Of a stretch of DNA of 64,000 nucleotides, positions 4,919-55,217 are shown piece after piece (the first letter of the stretch is position 1; every line of letters begins with the position of its first letter). The DNA comes from Candidatus Bathyarchaeota archaeon (lineage in GTDB: Archaea; Thermoproteota; Bathyarchaeia; Bathyarchaeales; Bathycorpusculaceae), in assembly GCA_023488905.1 (NCBI GenBank), contig JAMDCQ010000023.1, positions 1 to 64,000 of the forward strand. The letters are read 5' to 3'. The position numbers and the translations under genes were made by a program. The notes under the pieces were generated by a model, which had not been told where the DNA came from, made no database searches, and worked only from the letters and a program-made list of their open reading frames with translations.

Positions 4919-5018
4919 CTAGACCCCCTTATTTAAAGGCGCATACGAAACCCTGCGCGGAAAAGTTAGAAACCACGCGACCTCTCAGCCGCCACCTCCC
5001 CTCCCTTATATAAAGGCA
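4919..5018 (-). repeat. Dispersed promoter-like repeat, double TATA-core copy 1
   Basis: Two GC-rich blocks each end in a palindromic AT core: CCCCCTTATTTAAAGGC at about 4924-4940 and CCTCCCTTATATAAAGGC ending at 5017. The block 4970-5018 is identical over 49 bases to 34925-34973, and about 41 of these bases recur inverted at 30559-30599. Here the element fills the divergent space between the glycosidase-like gene and priS, ending about 75 bases before the priS start, so its TTATATAAAGG could act as TATA box. The family is described in the findings. Confidence 0.75.
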
Positions 5019-17719: not shown

Positions 17720-18080
17720 GGGTTTGCTGGGGCTTCTGGGTCAGTTTTCTTTAAGGAGAAAAGAAAAATGCAAAACTACGAACGCAATATCGTAAGTTAA
17801 GGGGGAGGGGTCTATCGTTGAGGTTGGGAGGTTCTGTTTTCTGCATACTAAAGGGTATGTTGCTTTATCAGTGATCAAAATTGTCGGTTCTGCTTGCGGA
17901 AGATGACACAACCAGTCTGCAGTCGCCAACGCCAACCAAACCCAAAAAGCAATCTGCAGCACAAACGGCTGGTTGTTGTTGAAACAAGAGGGGGCCACGG
18001 CAACAACAACTACAGAAAAAACAAACACAGCAAAAATTTTGATCTACTGTTTATATAAGGGGAGGGAGGTAGCGGCAGAG
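17720..18080 (+). repeat. Dispersed composite repeat, copy with modules A, B and C (decayed micro-gene)
   Basis: Module A (17720-17797) has a GGGTTTGCTGGGGCTTCTGG leader, then TTTAAGGAGAA and an ATG at 17768 (MQNYERNIVS, stop). Module B (17893-17982) encodes LAEDDTTSLQSPTPTKPKKQ and ends in AGCCC, stop; it runs into a hairpin of GTTGTTGTTG (17973 on) and CAACAACAAC (18001-18010). Module C (18050-18080) is the TTATATAAGGGGAGGG block. The coding frame is broken between A and B. Related copies are at 24123-24582, 36383-36690 and 53932-54229. Apart from this, 17673-18088 holds nothing. Confidence 0.65.
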
Positions 18081-23871: not shown

Positions 23872-24122
23872 TAGAGTCGTCTCTTAGTCCTTAGAGTTTA
23901 CTTGTCGTTTTAGATAAAGATTACACAATACAAAGGGAACTATGTGGGTTGAAAAGCGCCTTTTGGGTGAAGCCTCAGTTATATTTCCCCATATTTTGCA
24001 TTCTTCACAATTCAGACGGCTCTTCATGCATCATTGGCTTCAAGAAGAATCAAGGCTTCATGCTAGAAAATAAACTTTAACGGGTTTGATTGGGTTCTTG
24101 GTTGTTGGGATTCTTTTTTCTA

Positions 24123-24240
24123 TTAGTTGTTGTTGCCGAAGACCCCCTATACACAACAACAAGTCGCGGCGTGTGTGGGCGGCTGCATTTTTGGCGCGGC
24201 TGGTTTTAGCGGTTGCAGGCTAGTTGTGAAAGCAGCCACA
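24123..24240 (-). repeat. Module B copy, minus strand (tri-cysteine tail plus hairpin)
   Basis: Read on the minus strand, this copy encodes AAFTTSLQPLKPAAPKMQPP then THAATCCCV and TAG (stop at 24147-24149). The stop lies in the loop of a hairpin formed by TTGTTGTTG and CAACAACAA (24123-24163). It faces away from the plus-strand copy at 24389-24582, with the palindromic module C between them. No start codon in a good context is visible. Confidence 0.6.
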
Positions 24241-24276
24241 AACAGCACCGAATCGACATAAAGATGCGTTCTGCTG

Positions 24277-24352
24277 CTCTCAGTGACCTCCCCTCCCCTT
24301 ATATAAGGGAGGGGAGGTCAGTTCTGAGAGGTCGCGTGGTTTGTATGTGTTT
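24277..24352. repeat. Module C copy, long near-perfect palindrome
   Basis: Bases 24285-24319 form a 35-base near-perfect inverted repeat (arms GACCTCCCCTCCCCTTATA and its complement with one unpaired base) centred on TTATATAA. The right flank, CTGAGAGGTCGCGTGGTTT, matches the end of the other module C copies. The palindrome lets the element be read in both directions. Function unknown. Confidence 0.65.
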
Positions 24353-24388: not shown

Positions 24389-24582
24389 CCCTATATATAA
24401 GGGGGGTATAGAAAAAAAATCGCAACTGACCTCAACCTCAAGCCGCCTCCCCAAGCCGAACTGCTTGCGGAATCAACCACAACCAACCAGCAACAAGCTA
24501 CATCAGCAGACCACAAAACGGACGCCAAAACGCAGTCCGCTGGTTGTTGTTGTGTATAGGGGCTTTCCTGCAACAACTACTA
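24389..24582 (+). repeat. Micro-gene copy, plus strand, lacking a start codon
   Basis: After a TATATATAAGGGGGG tract, one open frame reads KKIATDLNLKPPPQAELLAE, then STTTNQQQATSADHKTDAKT and QSAGCCCV with TAG at 24557-24559. This is the longest uninterrupted copy of the body, but it lacks ATG, GTG or TTG in frame after the upstream stop. The hairpin spans about 24542-24577. It lies about 95 bases upstream of lysK. The rest of the 23872-24645 spacer shows no gene. Confidence 0.6.
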
Positions 24583-24675
24583 TAGAAAAACAGTTTAGCT
24601 TAAGTCACCGCAGAAGCTTTTGGCTCTAAACATTTTTCTATACCCTTGTCATGCTATTTGGCTGAAGGCAAAGTT

Positions 24676-30486: not shown

Positions 30487-30558
30487 ACTGTTACCTTTTG
30501 AGTGGCTCAGGTATTTTAATTGGGGCTACAACGACCCGCCTTTACGTATTTTTTCTTT

Positions 30559-30651
30559 TTATAAGGGAGGGGAGGTGGCGGCTGAGAGGTCGCGTGGTTT
30601 CCTCTGTTGCGGATACGGAATCGTATGCGCCTTTAAATAAGGGGGCCTAGT
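30559..30651 (+). repeat. Dispersed promoter-like repeat, double TATA-core copy 2 (inverted)
   Basis: Read on the plus strand: TTATAAGGGAGGGGAGG then GTGGCGGCTGAGAGGTCGCG, a short spacer, and a second core GCCTTTAAATAAGGGGG with CTAG (to 30651). The first block is the reverse complement of 4970-5010 and 34925-34965. Immediately after, AGAGAAATCGCAGCTAA resembles the start of the micro-gene body at 24412. It lies upstream of the minus-strand membrane-protein gene at 29902-30486. Confidence 0.75.
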
Positions 30652-34856: not shown

Positions 34857-34973
34857 CTAGACCCCCTTATTTAAAGGCTGAAACACAAGTCAACTTACAG
34901 TTAAAAGAACAAAAGGCAACATACAAACCACGCGACCTCTCAGCCGCCACCTCCCCTCCCTTATATAAAGGCA
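34857..34973 (-). repeat. Dispersed promoter-like repeat, double TATA-core copy 3
   Basis: The order is CTAGACCCCCTTATTTAAAGG (34857-34877), a 48-base AT-richer spacer, then the block 34925-34973, identical over 49 bases to 4970-5018. It fills the divergent space between serS and tRNA-Ser; its TTATATAAAGG (34961-34971) lies 60 bases before the tRNA, which is further than a standard archaeal TATA spacing to a mature tRNA 5' end but could serve a leader-containing transcript. Confidence 0.75.
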
Positions 34974-35030
34974 GAAATGCAGCGAGAAACTGAAAACTCT
35001 TTTAGCCAGAACCGCAATCATATGGCTGGA

Positions 35031-35158
35031 GCCGGGGTGGCGGAGTGGTTATCGCGCCAGCCTCGAGATCTAAAAAATGGGAAAGCCAGACCCGAAAAGA
35101 GGCAGGATAGCTGGTGGGCTTCGTGCTCGCAGGGGTTCGAGTCCCTTCCCCGGCGCCA
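35031..35158 (+). tRNA. tRNA-Ser (anticodon CGA) with a 41-base intron
   Basis: Acceptor GCCGGGG pairs with CCCCGGC (35148-35154), discriminator G, and CCA is encoded. The anticodon arm is CCAGC, CTCGAG, intron, A, GCTGG, giving anticodon CGA for UCG codons. The intron spans about 35068-35108, after position 37, the canonical archaeal site cut at a bulge-helix-bulge. A long variable arm (GGGC, loop TTCGT, GCTC) marks class II tRNA. The T arm is AGGGG, TTCGAGT, CCCTT. Confidence 0.93.
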
Positions 35159-36268: not shown

Positions 36269-36382
36269 CAAAAAAAGCCGTTCGTGCACACATACTCAGA
36301 ATACAGTTTTGACAAAGAAGGGGTTGCTGAGGCTTTGGGCATTCTTTAGCAGTAGATCAAAGTTTGTGGTGTTTTGTTTTTT

Positions 36383-36490
36383 TAGTTGTTGTTGCAGAAA
36401 AAGCCCTATACACAACAACAACCAGCCGACTGCACAAAAAACTGCTTTTTGCGTCAGCATGTTTTCTACGTTGCCTACTGGTTGTGGAGC
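36383..36490 (-). repeat. Module B copy, minus strand
   Basis: The hairpin arms TTGTTGTTG (36386 on) and CAACAACAA (36411-36420) enclose CCCTATACA. On the minus strand the tail reads VQSAGCCCV then TAG at 36406-36408, as in the plus-strand copy at 24389-24582. Upstream sequence (rightwards) shares CCACAAACAG and the CTGCTCTCA..G block with the 24230-24290 copy, so homology extends well beyond the hairpin. Confidence 0.6.
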
Positions 36491-36529
36491 CCACCACAAA
36501 CAGAAGAAACCATACAAGAATGACGCTTC

Positions 36530-36690
36530 CTGCTCTCACAGAGCCCCTCTCTCCCCCTATAAAAAGGCAAAACAGCCGCCGAAAAGAGAGAAGGTATTGA
36601 CTGGGTTTACTGGGGCCCCTGGGTCATTATTTCTTTAAGGAGAAAGAAAAATGAAAACCACAATAACACGATTGTAAGTCAAACCAGAAG
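36530..36690. repeat. Modules C (degenerate) and A, plus strand leader copy
   Basis: CCTCTCTCCCCCTATAAAAAGG (36546-36567) is a degenerate module C. Module A follows at 36603: GGGTTTACTGGGGCCCCTGG, then TTTAAGGAGAAAGAAAA and an ATG at 36651. Restoring one C after the ATG gives MQNHNNTIVSQTRSPFSPN, matching MQNHDHNIASQNQKTSQPG at 53978. As it stands the frame stops after eight residues (TAA). It abuts the 3' end of the propeller gene at 36767. Nothing else is visible in 36269-36766. Confidence 0.6.
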
Positions 36691-36766
36691 CCCATTCAGC
36701 CCCAACCTGAAAGCTTTAAAGAAACTAAAAAAGGGAGGGAAAGTTGATTTTAGCATTGCCTTCACC

Positions 36767-39283
36767 TTATGGTCTTTTTCTGAGCATCAGCACAACAATT
36801 GCACCAATTGTAATGATAGCTAAGATTGTACCGATGGACATTGGCAGAAAGTATAAGTCAGCTGCTGATGGCGGCTGCGTTGGTTGAGGTGTTGACGTTA
36901 CTGGCGCAGGGTCAACGCTAAATGAGGTTATGGCTTGTGATGGCCAATAGGATTCGCTACTTTCGAATGATGCATAGACTGTATATGGACCTTCGATGTC
37001 TGGTTTCCAGCTGTAAGTAAAGAAGCCATCGACAGTAGTTGGTGTGCCGATTGTACGATAGTTGCCGTTACCGTCTATGACGCTTAGTGATACAGGGACG
37101 CCGACAGTATCGGCTGGTTTCTCCTGTTGCATGTATAGGTACTCCATCCAGCCTGTCATGCTTTGGTCAGCGACTGCGGGAACGCCATTGGGGAAACGCT
37201 TTGCAACTTCGTCCTGTTGAACACCAGGGGATGTGTCAGTTACTGTTCCGCGGATGGTTACGGTTGAACCTAAGGGTACTGCCGTCATGGGTGCATCAAC
37301 GGTTACTGCGCTGGTGCCTTTGCCGATGCAGTATAGCTCGCCGTCATAGTGGTTGAATTCAAGCAAATAGCCGTTTGCAACGACTGGACCAGGTGCCCAA
37401 GAAGATATGTTCCAAATCTGCTGACCTGTAGTTGCATTTACACAGAAAAGTTTGTAGCCTCTAGCCAAAGGATCATTGGGAGTGTGTTCGTTTGTGGCTG
37501 CAAAGACTTTGTCATCAGCAATCGTTACACCGCCATAGAATGGGTAGTGGCCGTATGCTGTGTCGATAGTAGTTTCAGTGCTGAATTCCCAGACAGTTTT
37601 GCCGGTCTTTATGTCTATTGCGTGAATTACTCCGTCGTAGCCCGCTGTATAGATTTTGCCGTATGCAACTTGGGGGTTTGGTTGACCTGCACCTGCAAAT
37701 GAAGCGGTGTACATGCCGAAAGAGTCCTCATAAGGTTCAGTTGGGCCCCAAATTTGTTTTCCTGTGCGAGCGTCGAATCCGTACCATTCGGTTGTTTCCT
37801 GCTTAAACCATGCAAAGCAACCGTCTGATATTGGGCTGAAGTTGTATTGTGGTCGGATAGTGTAGTCGGTTAAGTTCATAACCCAGAGGTTTTCGCCTGT
37901 TTCTGCATCATAACCTGCAACAGTCCTAACTGGCGGGTTAGCTTCCCTAAACGCTGCGGTGGTGATTAACACTCCGTCGCCGTACTGAGTGTATGTTTGA
38001 CCAGTAATATTTGGTATTGTCACGTTCCACATTAATCCGTCTGTCCAAGTGTAGTTTCGTGTAATGCTAGGCGCCCACATTAGGTCATCAGTTGGGTTGA
38101 CAGCTTTTGTGGAATTCCAAAGACTTAGCCAGCCTGCATTGGCATTTAATGTATAGACTAATACGTCGCCTTCTTCAGACATCGCTACTTTGGTAGCTGC
38201 TTGACAGCCACTGACCTTTAGCAGTGCTAATCCTGTAAACGCATCATACATTGTGGATGTGCCTGAGCGGTAGTCCCAGAGGTAAGCATAGACGCCATGG
38301 ATGTTTATGTTCTCAGTCTGCCATAATTGCCCAAAGCTAATGGAAGTATTGTTTTGGAACCAGAGTTTTTCTCCGGTTTGCAGATCAATGCAAGAGAAGC
38401 CTTGCACAGTAGCGCTTGGACCTCTAGTTTCAGTGAGGTAGAGTCTTCCGTTTATGACGACCGTTTTTGGTGGATTCCATTTTGTTTGGTATGATAGGCC
38501 GGTGTAGTAGTCTGATTCGTTAAAGTTATCGCCGACTATTCCTCCGAAAGTAAGTGGCATGCTCCATAGTATGTGTGCTGTGTTGGGTGCTGAAGAGTAA
38601 CTATTGAAGGCGCCCTCAGCGTTAGCGCCGTTACCGAATTGTAACGGTAGCCCCAGCCAGTTTCCTCCTGCCAGGGTTTTCCATTCGTAGTTCTGAGCGT
38701 CGATTGGCCGGCTCCAGTATTCAGTTGGAAGGGATGCACCTGAAGTTGCGTAGATTTGTTCTTCCTGTACCGAGACTTTTACTATGTGGCTTGTGCTTGG
38801 TTTATAATAATCGTGAGTCATTGGTTGTCCAGCTAAGCGTCTGCCATAGATCCAATCGCCACCATAATGGAACTGGAAAGTGTAGTTGCCGATTTCATCT
38901 GGAACGTAGGATGTTGCAGCGGAACCTGCAGAGTCAGATTCAAATGGCCCCAGTACAGTGACTGTATTGTCGGGTTCTGTCACAGTAACTGTGAAATTTG
39001 TAAAGGCTATAGCACGTAGTGTTGAGGTCTGTGTTTCTGGAACTGGCGGTGGTTTGTCAAGCCACATTACGATAACGAGTTGTTGACCGACGCCCACTGG
39101 GTTGGGGGCGACTGAAAGATGCGCATATGTGTCAATCGAAAGCTCATTGTCAGCTGCACTTGCTGTTTGAGGCAAAGTCATTAGTGGAAAGGCGATAGAT
39201 ACTACCATAATCAACGTAAGGAATGCTGCAGCGTAATTCCTTGATTTTTTCGTTTTTACTATAGTGATATGATTGTTTTTCAT
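36767..39283 (-). CDS. Large exported PQQ-like beta-propeller surface protein 1
   Basis: The 838-residue protein has an N-terminal export signal (NYAAAFLTLIMVVSIAFPLM, about 14-33), an Ig-like region (VTVTEPDNTVTVLGPFESD), and PQQ-type propeller repeats with the hallmark TGEKLWFQNN, TGENLWVMN, TGKQIWGPTEP, TGKTVWEFS and TGQQIWN. A second Ig-like module (DGFFTYSWKPDIEGPYTVYA) precedes a C-terminal segment: ADLYFLPMSIG, a hydrophobic helix and RKRP. It is displayed outside the cell. It is a paralogue of the 40299-42842 protein and shares the unusual C-terminal anchor. Catalytic function is not evident. Confidence 0.85.
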   Translation of the reverse strand: MKNNHITIVKTKKSRNYAAAFLTLIMVVSIAFPLMTLPQTASAADNELSIDTYAHLSVAPNPVGVGQQLVIVMWLDKPPPVPETQTSTLRAIAFTNFTVTVTEPDNTVTVLGPFESDSAGSAATSYVPDEIGNYTFQFHYGGDWIYGRRLAGQPMTHDYYKPSTSHIVKVSVQEEQIYATSGASLPTEYWSRPIDAQNYEWKTLAGGNWLGLPLQFGNGANAEGAFNSYSSAPNTAHILWSMPLTFGGIVGDNFNESDYYTGLSYQTKWNPPKTVVINGRLYLTETRGPSATVQGFSCIDLQTGEKLWFQNNTSISFGQLWQTENINIHGVYAYLWDYRSGTSTMYDAFTGLALLKVSGCQAATKVAMSEEGDVLVYTLNANAGWLSLWNSTKAVNPTDDLMWAPSITRNYTWTDGLMWNVTIPNITGQTYTQYGDGVLITTAAFREANPPVRTVAGYDAETGENLWVMNLTDYTIRPQYNFSPISDGCFAWFKQETTEWYGFDARTGKQIWGPTEPYEDSFGMYTASFAGAGQPNPQVAYGKIYTAGYDGVIHAIDIKTGKTVWEFSTETTIDTAYGHYPFYGGVTIADDKVFAATNEHTPNDPLARGYKLFCVNATTGQQIWNISSWAPGPVVANGYLLEFNHYDGELYCIGKGTSAVTVDAPMTAVPLGSTVTIRGTVTDTSPGVQQDEVAKRFPNGVPAVADQSMTGWMEYLYMQQEKPADTVGVPVSLSVIDGNGNYRTIGTPTTVDGFFTYSWKPDIEGPYTVYASFESSESYWPSQAITSFSVDPAPVTSTPQPTQPPSAADLYFLPMSIGTILAIITIGAIVVLMLRKRP

Positions 39284-40298: not shown

Positions 40299-42842
40299 TT
40301 ATGGTCGCTTCTTCATCATCAATACTACTAGTAGAACTAGTACTATGATGACTAAGACGAATAGGCCTGCGACTGCGGGGATGAAGTACATGTCTGCTGT
40401 GGATTGTGGCGTTGGTGTGGGTGCGGCGGTTGCTGCTGGTTCCTCTTCGACGAAGAATGCGTTTTGAGCGGTTGAACCATAGTATGCTGCTGAACCTAGG
40501 AAGGTGACGTAGACAGTGTATGCACCTGGAACGTCTGGTTTCCAATTGAAGCTGTATTTACCGTTTGTGTCACTTGTTGTTGTGCCAATGGTTCGGTAGT
40601 TTCCGTTAGCGTCAAGCACGCTGAAAGTCAACGGGACACCGCTTGCGTTGGTTGGGCATTCGAATTGCTTGTAGACATAGAGCATGTATTGGCTTTGGCT
40701 TGCGTCAGAGACTGCTGGAACACCGTTGGGGAACCGCATCTGCAATGCGGCGGACTTTGTTCCTGGTGAAATGTCGGTTACTGAACCTTTGATCGTAACG
40801 GTTTTGCCGAATTCAACTGAGATGTCTGGTGCAGTGGCAGTGACTTGTGATGACCCTTTGCCGATGGCGTAGACGCGTTGGTCGTAGGTATCCATGGTTG
40901 CGATTATGCTGTCGCCGATAACACTGTTGCCACCCCAACGAGTAGCACGGAACATGCCGTTCACGCGCCAAATTTCTGAGCCATCCGTCGCGTTTACACA
41001 GACGTAGGGTGCGCCTCTTGGAAGCGGGTTTTCTGCTGAGTGCTCGATAGTGCTCATGTAGATTTTGCCGTCAGCGATTAGGGTTATCCAGCCCCACCAG
41101 TTATTGCCGGTGACTGGTTCGCCGTATGCGTCGGTTAGGTTGTAGGTCCATGCGGTCTTACCTGTGCCAAGGTCATAGGCATAGAGGATACCGCCGATAC
41201 CAACTGAGTACAATTTGCCATAAGCAAAGTACCAAGTGTGCTCTGCATTACCCCAGCCGTACAGGTCTGCGTAGTGTTCAGAGCTTGTTTCCCAGAGGTA
41301 TTTACCAGTTACAAGGCTGAAGCCGTAGTGGGTTCTTAATTCTTTGCTCCATACTGCAATGACACCATCGCCGTATGTATCGTCAGTAACGTAGTTTGTT
41401 GCGCCAGTGTAGTGTAGAGTGTTCAAGCCAGCGAGCCATTCGGATGGTGCTGACCATGTTTGATCGAATAGCTTTGAGGCTGATGTCGATGAACTTGTTA
41501 AGCCTGCAATGTTAAGTGCCCATACTCTTACCATCGATTGGTTGAAGAATATTGAGACGTATCTGTCGCCATTATAGACCTTTGCGATTGGTGTGAAGAA
41601 GGACATGCTTTGTTGTAAGCCTGCTGGGATAGAGACGTTCCATTGGTAGCATTTCGGGTTCGATGCATCCAAGTTCTTCATCATGACGTTGCTTGCCCAA
41701 CTACCAAGCTCAGGTGAATTTGAGCCTAATACTGCTTGTAGACCGCAGAGTGTTGAGTTCCAAAGCATCAGTCGGTTCGTTACAAGATCTATTTGATAGA
41801 TCAAGATTTCACCGCTTGGGCCATAGACTTGTGTGCCAGAGGGAACATTGGTGAAATTGAAGCAAAATGCGAAGTCAAAGGGATCCCATGCTGTCCATGT
41901 TGTACCTGATGTTGTCCAGAGGTAGTTGTATACACCGTCAACATTGTAGCTGTTCCAGTAGAATACTTGACCGAATGCTAGATACATGTCTTCTTTCTGC
42001 CAGAGGGTTTCTCCTGTATGTAGGTCAACTGCTTTTATGTCGCAGTCACCTAGGGAACCGTAGAAGCCTGGTGCTGGTCCTGTGTTGTAGTAGAGTACTC
42101 CGTTTATTATGACTGAGTTAGTGAATTTGCCTTCATATGCGTCACCTGAAGCCATTCCTGCTGGGACATCGGCCAAGAGTCCACCGGCTAAACCGCCAGA
42201 GGTTATGTCTTGAGTCCAAAGTACGTGTGCTGTTTCGGGTGCGTCGTCTTGGTAGAGTGCGATTGAGTTGTCGGGACGTGCAACCCAGTTGCCTGAAATC
42301 AGAGACCAAAGCCTCAACTGATCGTCTATTGGACGACTCCAGTATTCAGTTGGTAGAGGTTGGTCTGGGTATTGTGGTGAGGGCTCTTCTGTTACGACTA
42401 GTGTGGTCGATGCACTGCTTGCTAGCATGACTGTTCCTTTGGGAATAAACATGGGTCTTTCAACTACAAATGTGTCTACTGGCATTGCTTGTTGTGGGAA
42501 GATGCTTGTTATGGTGTAGGTGCCTACGTGGTCTGGTGTATATTGTACGAAGGTTGAACCTGTGGAGTCTGTCTTGAATGGCCCCAATGTTGTGTTTGTG
42601 CCGTCTGGTTTTGTGACGACAATTGTGAGCCCGGACCATCCGTCTTGAGCTGCGCCCACTGCTTCTGAGATACCGGTTTTGAGTAGTGTTGTTTCGCCAA
42701 CGCCGACTTTGTCGGGGATGGCATCGACGAGGGAGTAGGTTTTCATTGGAGGTAGTTGTGATTCAACTTTTGATAGTGCTCCAAATGTTCCTAGTGCTAG
42801 GACTGCGAGTAGCAAAATTGTATAAATTTTTGTGGTTTTCAT
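40299..42842 (-). CDS. Large exported PQQ-like beta-propeller surface protein 2
   Basis: The 847-residue protein has a signal peptide (IYTILLLAVLALGTFGALS, about 6-24), an Ig-like segment (GLTIVVTKPDGTNTTLGPFK), propeller repeats (TGETLWQKEDM, TGKYLWETS, TGKTAWTYN, DGSEIWRVN), a second Ig-like module (NGKYSFNWKPDVPGAYTVYV) and a C-terminal ADMYFIPAVAGLF anchor ending KKRP. It is clearly a paralogue of the protein at 36767-39283 (shared SxxYWSRPID, WSPD- and FPNGVPAVSD segments). A CTTAAGGAGAA site precedes its ATG. It is divergent from the TrmB gene. Confidence 0.85.
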   Translation of the reverse strand: MKTTKIYTILLLAVLALGTFGALSKVESQLPPMKTYSLVDAIPDKVGVGETTLLKTGISEAVGAAQDGWSGLTIVVTKPDGTNTTLGPFKTDSTGSTFVQYTPDHVGTYTITSIFPQQAMPVDTFVVERPMFIPKGTVMLASSASTTLVVTEEPSPQYPDQPLPTEYWSRPIDDQLRLWSLISGNWVARPDNSIALYQDDAPETAHVLWTQDITSGGLAGGLLADVPAGMASGDAYEGKFTNSVIINGVLYYNTGPAPGFYGSLGDCDIKAVDLHTGETLWQKEDMYLAFGQVFYWNSYNVDGVYNYLWTTSGTTWTAWDPFDFAFCFNFTNVPSGTQVYGPSGEILIYQIDLVTNRLMLWNSTLCGLQAVLGSNSPELGSWASNVMMKNLDASNPKCYQWNVSIPAGLQQSMSFFTPIAKVYNGDRYVSIFFNQSMVRVWALNIAGLTSSSTSASKLFDQTWSAPSEWLAGLNTLHYTGATNYVTDDTYGDGVIAVWSKELRTHYGFSLVTGKYLWETSSEHYADLYGWGNAEHTWYFAYGKLYSVGIGGILYAYDLGTGKTAWTYNLTDAYGEPVTGNNWWGWITLIADGKIYMSTIEHSAENPLPRGAPYVCVNATDGSEIWRVNGMFRATRWGGNSVIGDSIIATMDTYDQRVYAIGKGSSQVTATAPDISVEFGKTVTIKGSVTDISPGTKSAALQMRFPNGVPAVSDASQSQYMLYVYKQFECPTNASGVPLTFSVLDANGNYRTIGTTTSDTNGKYSFNWKPDVPGAYTVYVTFLGSAAYYGSTAQNAFFVEEEPAATAAPTPTPQSTADMYFIPAVAGLFVLVIIVLVLLVVLMMKKRP

Positions 42843-42966
42843 TCTTTTTTTTCTCCTTAAGGTGTAAATGGGTTTAGTTATGAATGCAATTAAACGCTTG
42901 CTAGTAGCACAACCACTAGCAATTTAGCAAAAAGTAATAAGCAACTAAGGTTAAAACAGAATAAAC

Positions 42967-53806: not shown

Positions 53807-53931
53807 GTGGTTTCCCCGATGTGAATGGGTAACTTGGGATTTAACCCTTTAGCAGCTCAACATGGAGGGAACTTGCGCCCTATTCAAAAGTGAGGGGCAG
53901 TTTCACTGTGAAAGGTAGCGCAATTGAGACC

Positions 53932-54125
53932 GGGTTTGCTGGGGCTTCTGGCCCATTTCTCTTAAGGAGAAGCGAAAATGCAAAACCACGATCACAACAT
54001 CGCAAGTCAGAACCAGAAAACATCTCAGCCCGGAAGTGCTTGAGGAAATCTCCACAACCAAGCAGCAACCCAACACAGACACAGAAACCAAAACACAACC
54101 CCCAGCCAAATCCGTTGGAAGATGA
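53932..54125 (+). repeat. Micro-gene copy with start, frameshifted (modules A plus B body)
   Basis: GGGTTTGCTGGGGCTTCTGG is followed by CTTAAGGAGAA and ATG at 53978: MQNHDHNIASQNQKTSQPG, then SA and stop (54041). One base shift continues LEEISTTKQQPNTDTETKTQ and ends PPAKSVGR at TGA (54123), aligning with AESTTTNQQQ..DAKTQSAGCCC at 24440-24559. The tri-cysteine tail is lost here. It is the best match linking module A to module B. Confidence 0.65.
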
Positions 54126-54183
54126 TGAATAAGGGCGGCATTCTCTTCTTCTTAATACTAAAAAACAAAAAATATCTAAATCT

Positions 54184-54229
54184 GCTTAAATAAGGGAGGG
54201 GAGGTAGACGCTGAGACGTCGCGTGACTA
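54184..54229 (+). repeat. Module C copy downstream of the micro-gene
   Basis: CTTAAATAAGGGAGGGGAGG, then TAGACGCTGAGACGTCGCGTGAC, keeps the order TATA-core, G-rich, CTGAGA, GTCGCGTG of other copies, and follows the micro-gene copy by about 60 bases as at 18050. No gene is recognised elsewhere in 53807-54236. Confidence 0.65.
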
Positions 54230-54236
54230 AGCACGG

Positions 54237-55217
54237 CTACACGACGAGGTCGGACATGTCAACGCTGCGCTCATAAATCTGCCTCAGGAAAGACACCGCT
54301 GCCAGAATCTGGGGCATCAAATCCACCGACGAATCCTTCGCAGCTTCCTCAATTTTTGAGCACGCCTCTTCGATTTTGGCTCTTTGGATACGGACACTCT
54401 CGGCTAGCGCGATGTCCTTGGTCTGGAAGGCTTTGAAAGCTTGTTCAGTAGCTTCGCAACATGCCCCCTGCAGTTCCAAAAAGAGCTTTCGGAGGTCAAC
54501 TGAGAGTTTGTTTCCATCCAACTCTAGCGTGCTGGATGCCATCTGGACACATGCATCGCCGATGCCTTCTATGAAGCCTGCGGCTAAACGGTAGTCCAAA
54601 CACTCAATCGGGGTTATCGCTAGCTTTTCACTTAGCCGCGGATTCTGCAAAATCGTTCGAAGGATTCTGACAAGCAAAAAGTAGAACTTGTTATTCTCCA
54701 CATCGCGTTCGATCACGTTTTTGGCTAAGTCCATATCCAGATTGACAAAGGAGCTAGCTGCGTCGCGGATCATGCGGGCGGCGCTGGCTTGGTTGCGCTG
54801 CAAAATCCTCCCCGGCGACGTAAACGGCTGCTGCATCAAACACTGCAAAGTCATCATCGAAGTCGTTTCTTCAACAATCATCAACCCAGCCAAAGAGTTA
54901 GCTGTGGACTTAACCAAGTTACGCATGTTTGAGTCGATGCGGTTTTTGGCTTCCACCTTGATTATGTCGTAGCCGAGCAGGTAGCGGCCGACGATTTCAC
55001 GGCTCAAATATGGACCGACGGTTAGGGAGATTTCTTTGGGTTGCGGCTCAACTTCCTCTTTTGCGTCGACAAGCAGTTTGCCGTCGCTTGTTACTTCAAG
55101 TTTGATTTCGCTGCCTTTTTGGAGGAGGTTTTCGTTTGCCCAATCACGTGGGAGGCAGACAAAGAAGGTGCCGGTTGGCGTTTGCTGAACCTTGCGTGTT
55201 ACACTCACAGGGAACAC
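54237..55217 (-). CDS. AbrB-PhoU domain phosphate-uptake-type regulator
   Basis: The N-terminal 50 residues form an AbrB/SpoVT-like swapped hairpin (VTRKVQQTPTGTFFVCLPRD), a DNA-binding domain. Helical PhoU-like domains follow, with two three-helix units (RIDSNMRNLVKSTANSLAGL; DMDLAKNVIERDVENNKFYF, where the ...D..n motif fits PhoU). This AbrB-PhoU fusion is common in archaea and is thought to link phosphate sensing to transcription. The GTG start at 55217 gives the usual VSVTRKVQ N terminus. It faces the polD gene divergently. Confidence 0.87.
   Translation of the reverse strand: MFPVSVTRKVQQTPTGTFFVCLPRDWANENLLQKGSEIKLEVTSDGKLLVDAKEEVEPQPKEISLTVGPYLSREIVGRYLLGYDIIKVEAKNRIDSNMRNLVKSTANSLAGLMIVEETTSMMTLQCLMQQPFTSPGRILQRNQASAARMIRDAASSFVNLDMDLAKNVIERDVENNKFYFLLVRILRTILQNPRLSEKLAITPIECLDYRLAAGFIEGIGDACVQMASSTLELDGNKLSVDLRKLFLELQGACCEATEQAFKAFQTKDIALAESVRIQRAKIEEACSKIEEAAKDSSVDLMPQILAAVSFLRQIYERSVDMSDLVV

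Follow-up and report, generated by a model that had tools for sequence, protein, structure and literature searches.

The segment at 53931-54188 of the window (the whole 64,000-nucleotide stretch analysed, which is bases 1-64000 of contig C20 in a 1.79-Mb genome, 91% complete, in 23 contigs) contains members of two unrelated repeat families lying side by side, and not one gene. The first-pass annotation had joined a 'module A' (a leader followed by ATG) and a 'module B' (a body ending in three cysteines) into a single micro-gene of about 50 codons. The repeats it reported are real, and its own alternative, a sequence that works as RNA or DNA and not through a protein, was right for both parts. 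We consider it highly likely that the first part is a decayed, gene-less copy of a 3'-UTR structured RNA and the second a truncated copy of a mobile repeat; this judgement concerns the identity of the two parts and excludes the mechanisms discussed below.

The likeness between copies goes beyond chance for both repeats. Module A at 53932 is homologous to the sequences at 17720 (83% over 78 bp, E 3e-15) and 36603 (76% over 106 bp, E 2e-14). The module B copies within the window are likewise homologous, and the genome contains many others; those at 24123 and 36383 were confirmed as repeats, but on the minus strand. The union of the two modules did not survive. A search of the genome with a 209-nt stretch of the window gave 42 matches at E<=10, 25 of them at E<0.01. 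One of the 42 was the stretch itself, and not one of the other 41 spanned both modules. Module B was present at many sites without module A, and gene-linked copies of module A had no module B behind them in the stretches inspected. The single 'frameshift' read within 53978-54125 is the junction between the decayed A copy and the truncated B copy, which four bases separate.

The covariance model R2, which describes module A in the sense orientation, matched 53929-54044 with 58.2 bits and three broken stem pairs. The gene upstream of this element on the minus strand encodes a PhoU-domain protein and ends at 54237, about 190 nt away. The adjoining B copy has no left end, and its right inverted end is degenerate (about 54170-54188). 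The intact element at 36600-36715 lies 51 nt past the stop codon of its host gene, whose product ends in ADLYFLP, a helix and RKRP; the R2 search of the window found no element behind the paralogue of this gene. Coordinates are collected in the table.

Table. Features of the window that bear on the two repeat families.
Feature	Position	Strand	Evidence
Decayed gene-less copy of the predicted 3'-UTR structured RNA (module A, real strand)	53931..54032	-	R2 match
Module B copy, 5'-truncated	54037..54188	+	Alignment with other copies, direct sequence reading
Intact predicted 3'-UTR structured RNA	36600..36715	-	R2 77.8 bits, no broken stem pair
Host gene, 838-aa secreted PQQ/BamB-like protein with C-terminal membrane anchor	36767..39283	-	PF13360, E 1.8e-14
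Surface-protein gene paralogous to the host gene and lying directly upstream of it	40299..42842	-	Pfam
Start region of this paralogue, with 27 base pairs predicted to the 36600-36715 element	42831..42867	-	Duplex of -33.5 kcal/mol
Fragment of the predicted 3'-UTR RNA, inner part only, stem lost	17744..17798	-	R2 28.3 bits, model positions 37-97
Module B, both inverted ends present	17866..18052	+	DNA match 17866-18049; right end 18037-18052
Module B, one inverted end recognised	36347..36505	-	DNA match; end at 36347-36362
Module B core, no recognised inverted ends	24118..24246	-	Alignment
Module B core, no recognised inverted ends	24460..24589	+	Alignment

A covariance model (R1) built from seven copies of module A had matches in 24 of 41 genomes at E<=1, its own genome included. 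At E<=0.01 there were 70 matches, and 67 were examined, three at contig ends being left out. Fifty of these, tallied by eye, lay 33-83 nt past the stop codon of a gene on the opposite strand whose product has a C-terminal membrane helix, and 17, among them the window copies at 53932 and 17720, lacked this gene pattern. The host proteins are secreted and end in a Thr/Pro-rich stalk, often an ADLYFxPA-like motif, a membrane helix and basic residues. Since the host genes are on the opposite strand, the real strand of module A in the window is the minus strand and the element is a predicted 3'-UTR feature. The supposed leader, AAGGAGAA...ATG, is the antisense of one arm of the RNA encoded there, and the string read as a Shine-Dalgarno (SD) motif with its ATG is the antisense of a pyrimidine-rich CUCC segment of that RNA. 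Such a string, antisense to a hairpin, mimics a micro-gene and is a trap for annotation.

The gene context was examined again with R2 at 41 loci outside its training set (the strand of three was set by motif), under a set rule: 15-120 nt upstream there had to be the end of an ORF that is 150 aa or longer and encodes a C-terminal hydrophobic helix. Such an ORF was found at 30 of the 41 loci; the other 11 included one that was unscorable at a contig end. A further 25 loci were fetched by protein similarity alone, some from genomes already sampled and none from the R2 training set, and were labelled Candidatus Bathyarchaeota (24) or Nitrososphaerota (one). R2 gave 18 matches at E<=0.1 in these loci, 17 of them on the strand of the gene. 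At 11 of the 25 the element lay 39-68 nt past the stop codon, one match being weak (E 0.07), and 14 were without the element, one of which had 65 nt left after the stop. The surface proteins of loci L198-L236 have a common C-terminal anchor pattern of a Thr/Pro stalk, often ADLYFxPA, a helix and RKRP; a search of the two window proteins for C-terminal sorting families gave no CTERM model (NCBIfam, E<=0.1). Locus L024 (G000:C18:167087-167105, minus strand) has the 19-nt GGTTTGCTGGGGCTTCTGG end of module A without a mismatch, and the sequence beyond it is unrelated.

The sense element is about 105 nt long and has an interrupted 16-bp stem, GGGGCUGAG..GGCUYCUGG with CCAGARGCC(C/U)CAGCAAACCC, that encloses a variable hairpin followed by the CUCC segment. 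We aligned 49 sense elements with MAFFT, 48 of them from the 50 gene-linked copies and one a non-surface copy (G014d). Stem positions paired in 94.3% of cells, compared with 86.0% in shuffled alignments (0 of 500 as high) and 25-56% in slid controls, and there were 97 cells with both bases changed as against 36.9 in the shuffles (0 of 500). In the inner helix, double changes were seen at eight of nine pairs. The covariation thus exceeds both the shuffled and the slid controls, with the caveats that the models that found the copies held at least part of the stem and that CUUCUGG and CUCUGG versions, which differ by a one-base shift, may inflate it. RNAalifold gave -19.6 for the sense alignment and -11.3 for the antisense.

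Strand and CTCC counts were made on 87 elements, two weak loci (L265 and L271) having been dropped. On the strand of the gene, G·U mispairs outnumbered A·C mispairs by 56 to 27 (p 0.002). Among the 49 elements found with the antisense model, a choice that should work against the asymmetry, the counts were 31 and 19, which alone is not significant; the other 38, which came mostly from the sense model and are biased in its favour, gave 25 and 8. Folding z scores hardly separated the strands (-2.81 sense, -2.54 antisense; sense better in 51 of 87). CTCC was present in 78 of the 87 elements compared with 21% in shuffles, and in 46 of 87 this segment lay in a loop closed by at least four pairs. A pseudoknot of an upstream GGAGAA with UUCUCC was noticed by eye in part of the elements and was absent from those inspected in the window's own genome.

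Could the conserved palindrome be a DNA-level repeat or cruciform, a site of gene conversion or recombination that travels with the 3' ends of the gene family? Those 3' ends are indeed paralogous, and orphan copies exist (the two gene-less window copies, C18:196784, C15:5270 and C18:70835). The excess of G·U over A·C on the strand of the gene and the constant place of the element after the stop codon argue against a DNA-level repeat, which we regard as improbable. The loss of the stem in gene-less copies agrees with a function tied to surface genes; a counter-example to a strict rule is the gene-less copy at C18:70835, which by eye keeps most of its stem. Context, covariation and strand asymmetry together indicate that module A, read on the minus strand, is very probably a structured RNA of 3'-UTRs, a prediction made from sequence.

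The range of this predicted RNA is narrow. R2 had matches in 17 of 32 genomes of the genus. In searches with stricter filters, 32 genomes out of a class-wide sample of 201, the own genome among the 32, had matches at E<=0.01, and all 32 belong to f1 or f6, two families within a single order; at E<=0.001 matches were found in 17 of 300 genomes sampled from the phylum, again in f1 and f6 only. The highest number of elements in one genome was at least 18. Two elements stand in direct tandem at G130:C37:12606-12870 and at G150:C9:259124-259358. Rfam searched against the window at gathering scores returned two tRNAs only, one of which is 125 nt long (35031-35155) and probably carries an intron; against eight loci at E<=1, it gave three weak matches, none of them over the element. 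No Rfam family thus matched the predicted 3'-UTR RNA in these searches, and neither repeat is described in those portions of the open-licence literature that our searches covered.

Many genes of the family start AGGAGAA…AUG, and the CUCC segment is complementary to start regions of this form (AGGAG...AUG) within the family, a relationship shown statistically and held with moderate confidence. In the R2 search of the window, the matches ranking after the three elements were the antisense of two surface-gene start sites, at non-significant scores (13.1 and 8.5 bits, E 0.44 and 4.6), and among the 28 window genes with a Shine-Dalgarno motif the two surface genes paired best with the element cores of the genome. 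In ten genomes, 38 family start sites gained 5.56 kcal/mol over shuffled cores compared with 1.81 for 82 generic sites (p 1.6e-9); four of 42 genes were left out of this comparison (G021a, G022a, G018c and G048b), and 53 of the generic sites came from the own genome, with one to eight from each of the others. In those other genomes, plain energies were often equal or better for the generic site: the two kinds were about equal in G011, G009 and G014, and a single generic site was better in G003, G013 and G024. In the own genome, six family sites gave -19.9 kcal/mol compared with -15.2 for 13 genes with GGAG and ATG (p 0.007), and both the SD and the AUG were paired in 24 of 30 family cases as against 36 of 65 GGAG+ATG cases.

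A reading in which each element pairs with the 5' end of its own mRNA was not supported. Pairing with the own gene was not preferred (-15.99 compared with -17.05 for genome-mates; permutation p 0.96, 42 genes), and the start sites of these 42 genes ranked at a median of the 23rd percentile among windows of their own mRNA. As the own element did no better than those of genome-mates and the start sites ranked no higher than this, any pairing would be family-wide. We tentatively propose that the pyrimidine-rich CUCC segment pairs with start sites of family mRNAs, in cis or between members, and that such pairing would damp the translation of surface-protein mRNAs; this is a possible reading to which we give appreciably less than even weight. 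An extension of it, in which the element is an antisense copy of the family start region and each surface transcript, or a fragment released from it, represses the paralogues, so that the choice of surface protein would be made by RNA only, seems to us unlikely.

The element may instead serve 3'-end formation or mRNA stability, as the companion of a U-tract terminator or as a block to exonucleases, with its likeness to start sites a by-product of pyrimidine richness. We find this plausible, if somewhat short of an even chance. A tract of five or more U, mostly after Cs, lies between the stop codon and the element in 69 of 76 cases compared with 38 of 76 on the opposite strand; the spacing to the stop is tight, and the absence of a preference for own-gene pairing also speaks for such a role. 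If the tract is a terminator, the element may be absent from the mature mRNA, and its action would then be confined to read-through transcripts, or would be of another kind. Set against a role confined to the 3' end are the pairing of family start sites, which exceeds even that of generic sites matched for SD and ATG, and the preservation of CTCC well above shuffled expectation. U-tracts without any such element are common in archaea, which also counts against it. A 3'-end or stability role and the proposed start-site pairing are not mutually exclusive.

A protein-coding reading of module B was not borne out. Over 33 copies, the tri-cysteine frame contained 13 stops, compared with 16 and 13 in the other two frames and 15.7 in shuffles. 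Differences by codon position, a comparison that the first-pass annotation had itself put forward as a check, were 0.395, 0.312 and 0.349 across 13 copies, and the lack of a third-position excess went against its protein. The ending read as AGCCCV is the GGTTGTTGTTG arm of the module B hairpin, GCCC being that arm. What can be said for a micro-gene is that a search with the 32-aa B peptide gave 103 matches in eight of 32 genus genomes, many free of stops over about 30 codons, and that in eight of the 16 aligned copies with the hairpin arm the tri-cysteine frame is open, the other eight having an upstream stop. Open B matches look coding at first, but a tblastn-like search favours open frames; with neither stop depletion nor third-position excess, A/C-rich composition suffices for them. 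Modules A and B are moreover independent repeats, and changes within module A preserve base pairs. We rejected the protein-coding micro-gene on the stops, the codon positions and the independence of the two repeats, and consider a micro-gene broken in all local copies scarcely credible.

A structured-RNA reading of module B was also rejected: RNAalifold found four pairs (-0.63 kcal/mol), two with changes on both sides, and mean z scores over 33 copies were -0.5 forward and -1.0 reverse. Module B is very probably a mobile repeat. Many copies have the inverted ends TATCAGTAGATCAAAA…TTTTGATCTACTGATA, and the end-like pattern with up to three mismatches occurred at 71 forward and 54 reverse sites, compared with 9 and 12 for a reversed control. 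We found 28 inverted pairs in 40 fetched loci after nested pairs were removed: eleven measured 163-184 bp, twelve measured 254-278 bp and had an interior that differs from that of the 163-184 bp class, one measured 1113 bp and four were of odd sizes. Identical 4-bp flanks stood on both sides of CAG…CTG in 12 of the 28, compared with 5.99 in shuffles (p 0.0005); of flank lengths 1-8, 4 bp alone was significant. Identical flanks were always TTAT, TTAA or ATAA, and eight further pairs had TTAT/ATAA. The second short-element class, of about 254-278 bp (L085-L087, L089, L091-L096, L107, L108 and L110), has the same inverted ends around an unrelated, hairpin-rich interior.

As DNA, module B was found in 17 of the 32 genus genomes, the own genome included, seven of them by weak short matches alone (best E above 0.001). 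In some copies the hairpin arm GTTGTTGTTG is swapped for GAAGATGAAGAA, with a matching change on the opposite side. The genes flanking 34 copies were in mixed orientation (10 divergent, 10 convergent, seven and three co-directional, four without a called left neighbour). The motif detected no inverted end in 17 of the 34 copies that had been selected by their core, so inverted ends may not always be needed for the core to spread or to persist. Some B cores share another left flank in place of the inverted end (GGGTATAG..TCGCAACTGACC; 24389-24460, L013, L022 and L034). A third repeat, CCTCCCCTTATATAAGGGAGGGGAGGT followed by CTGAGAGGTCGCGTGG, with a palindromic centre, occurs at 24284-24320, 4967-5016, 30557-30600, 34862-34974 and 54185-54225, and several mobile repeats sit within its TTATA/AAGGG surroundings, as if these were a preferred target.

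A full-size element at C22:38854-39972 carries the same inverted ends as module B around an open frame of 349 residues. Its transposase matched DDE_Tnp_1 (E 1.1e-11), and its best NCBIfam match by far was ISH3 (E 4.4e-51); at 173.8 bits this is below the curated cut-off of 225 bits, so we call the element ISH3-like. The tabulated family entry of PMC2266710 gives ISH3 ends as CRGT with duplications of 4-5 bp, the accompanying text stating typically five, and the ends (CAGT) and flanks (TTAT/TTAT) of the C22 element fit that table. The element is 1113-1119 bp long, outside the 1225-1500 bp listed there, and by eye its frame reads F-(2)-R-(3)-E-(3)-R in place of the ISH3 motif Y-(2)-R-(3)-E-(3)-R. 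The own genome has one copy of the large element and a short fragment; among 61 genomes, the own included, two others had relatives (57% over part; 34% with a stop). Short, multi-copy, with terminal inverted repeats, a 4-bp target-site duplication and an autonomous partner with the same ends, module B has the features by which MITEs are defined, and would be a short non-autonomous transposable element that the ISH3-like DDE transposase could move.

In the light of known systems, module B on its own is ordinary. With its C22 partner it resembles the ISH3 family as summarised in PMC2266710 (DDE transposase from archaea, ends that start with CRGT, duplications of 4-5 bp), and it resembles prokaryotic MITEs as outlined in PMC10969869 in being a short repeat whose ends are common to a full element. 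It departs from both patterns in that no origin in the full element was traced for what lies inside the short repeats and many copies are without recognisable ends. For module A, a multi-copy structured 3'-UTR RNA of one gene family that comes with an explicit base-pairing prediction would open translation control by 3'-UTRs in uncultured archaea to direct testing. The icaR mRNA of Staphylococcus aureus, as presented in PMC3868564, carries in its 3'-UTR a C-rich motif that is complementary to the Shine-Dalgarno region and has been proposed to keep translation in check, and module A is similar in that its 3'-UTR motif is complementary, family-wide, to that region. Unlike icaR, module A is archaeal, lies in a conserved covarying stem behind many paralogues, is not specific to its own gene and is a prediction from sequence; because pairing within the same mRNA is not preferred (p 0.96), we did not file it as an icaR-type member. 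Archaeal U-tract terminators acting with aCPSF1 (PMC8716108) share with our loci the U-tract after the stop codon, but here a covarying structured RNA follows the tract. In haloarchaea, translation control needs both the 5'- and the 3'-UTR according to the summary of PMC2636863; that case, from a different lineage and compared by description only, resembles the proposed pairing in that archaeal 3'-UTRs there must interact functionally with 5'-UTRs.
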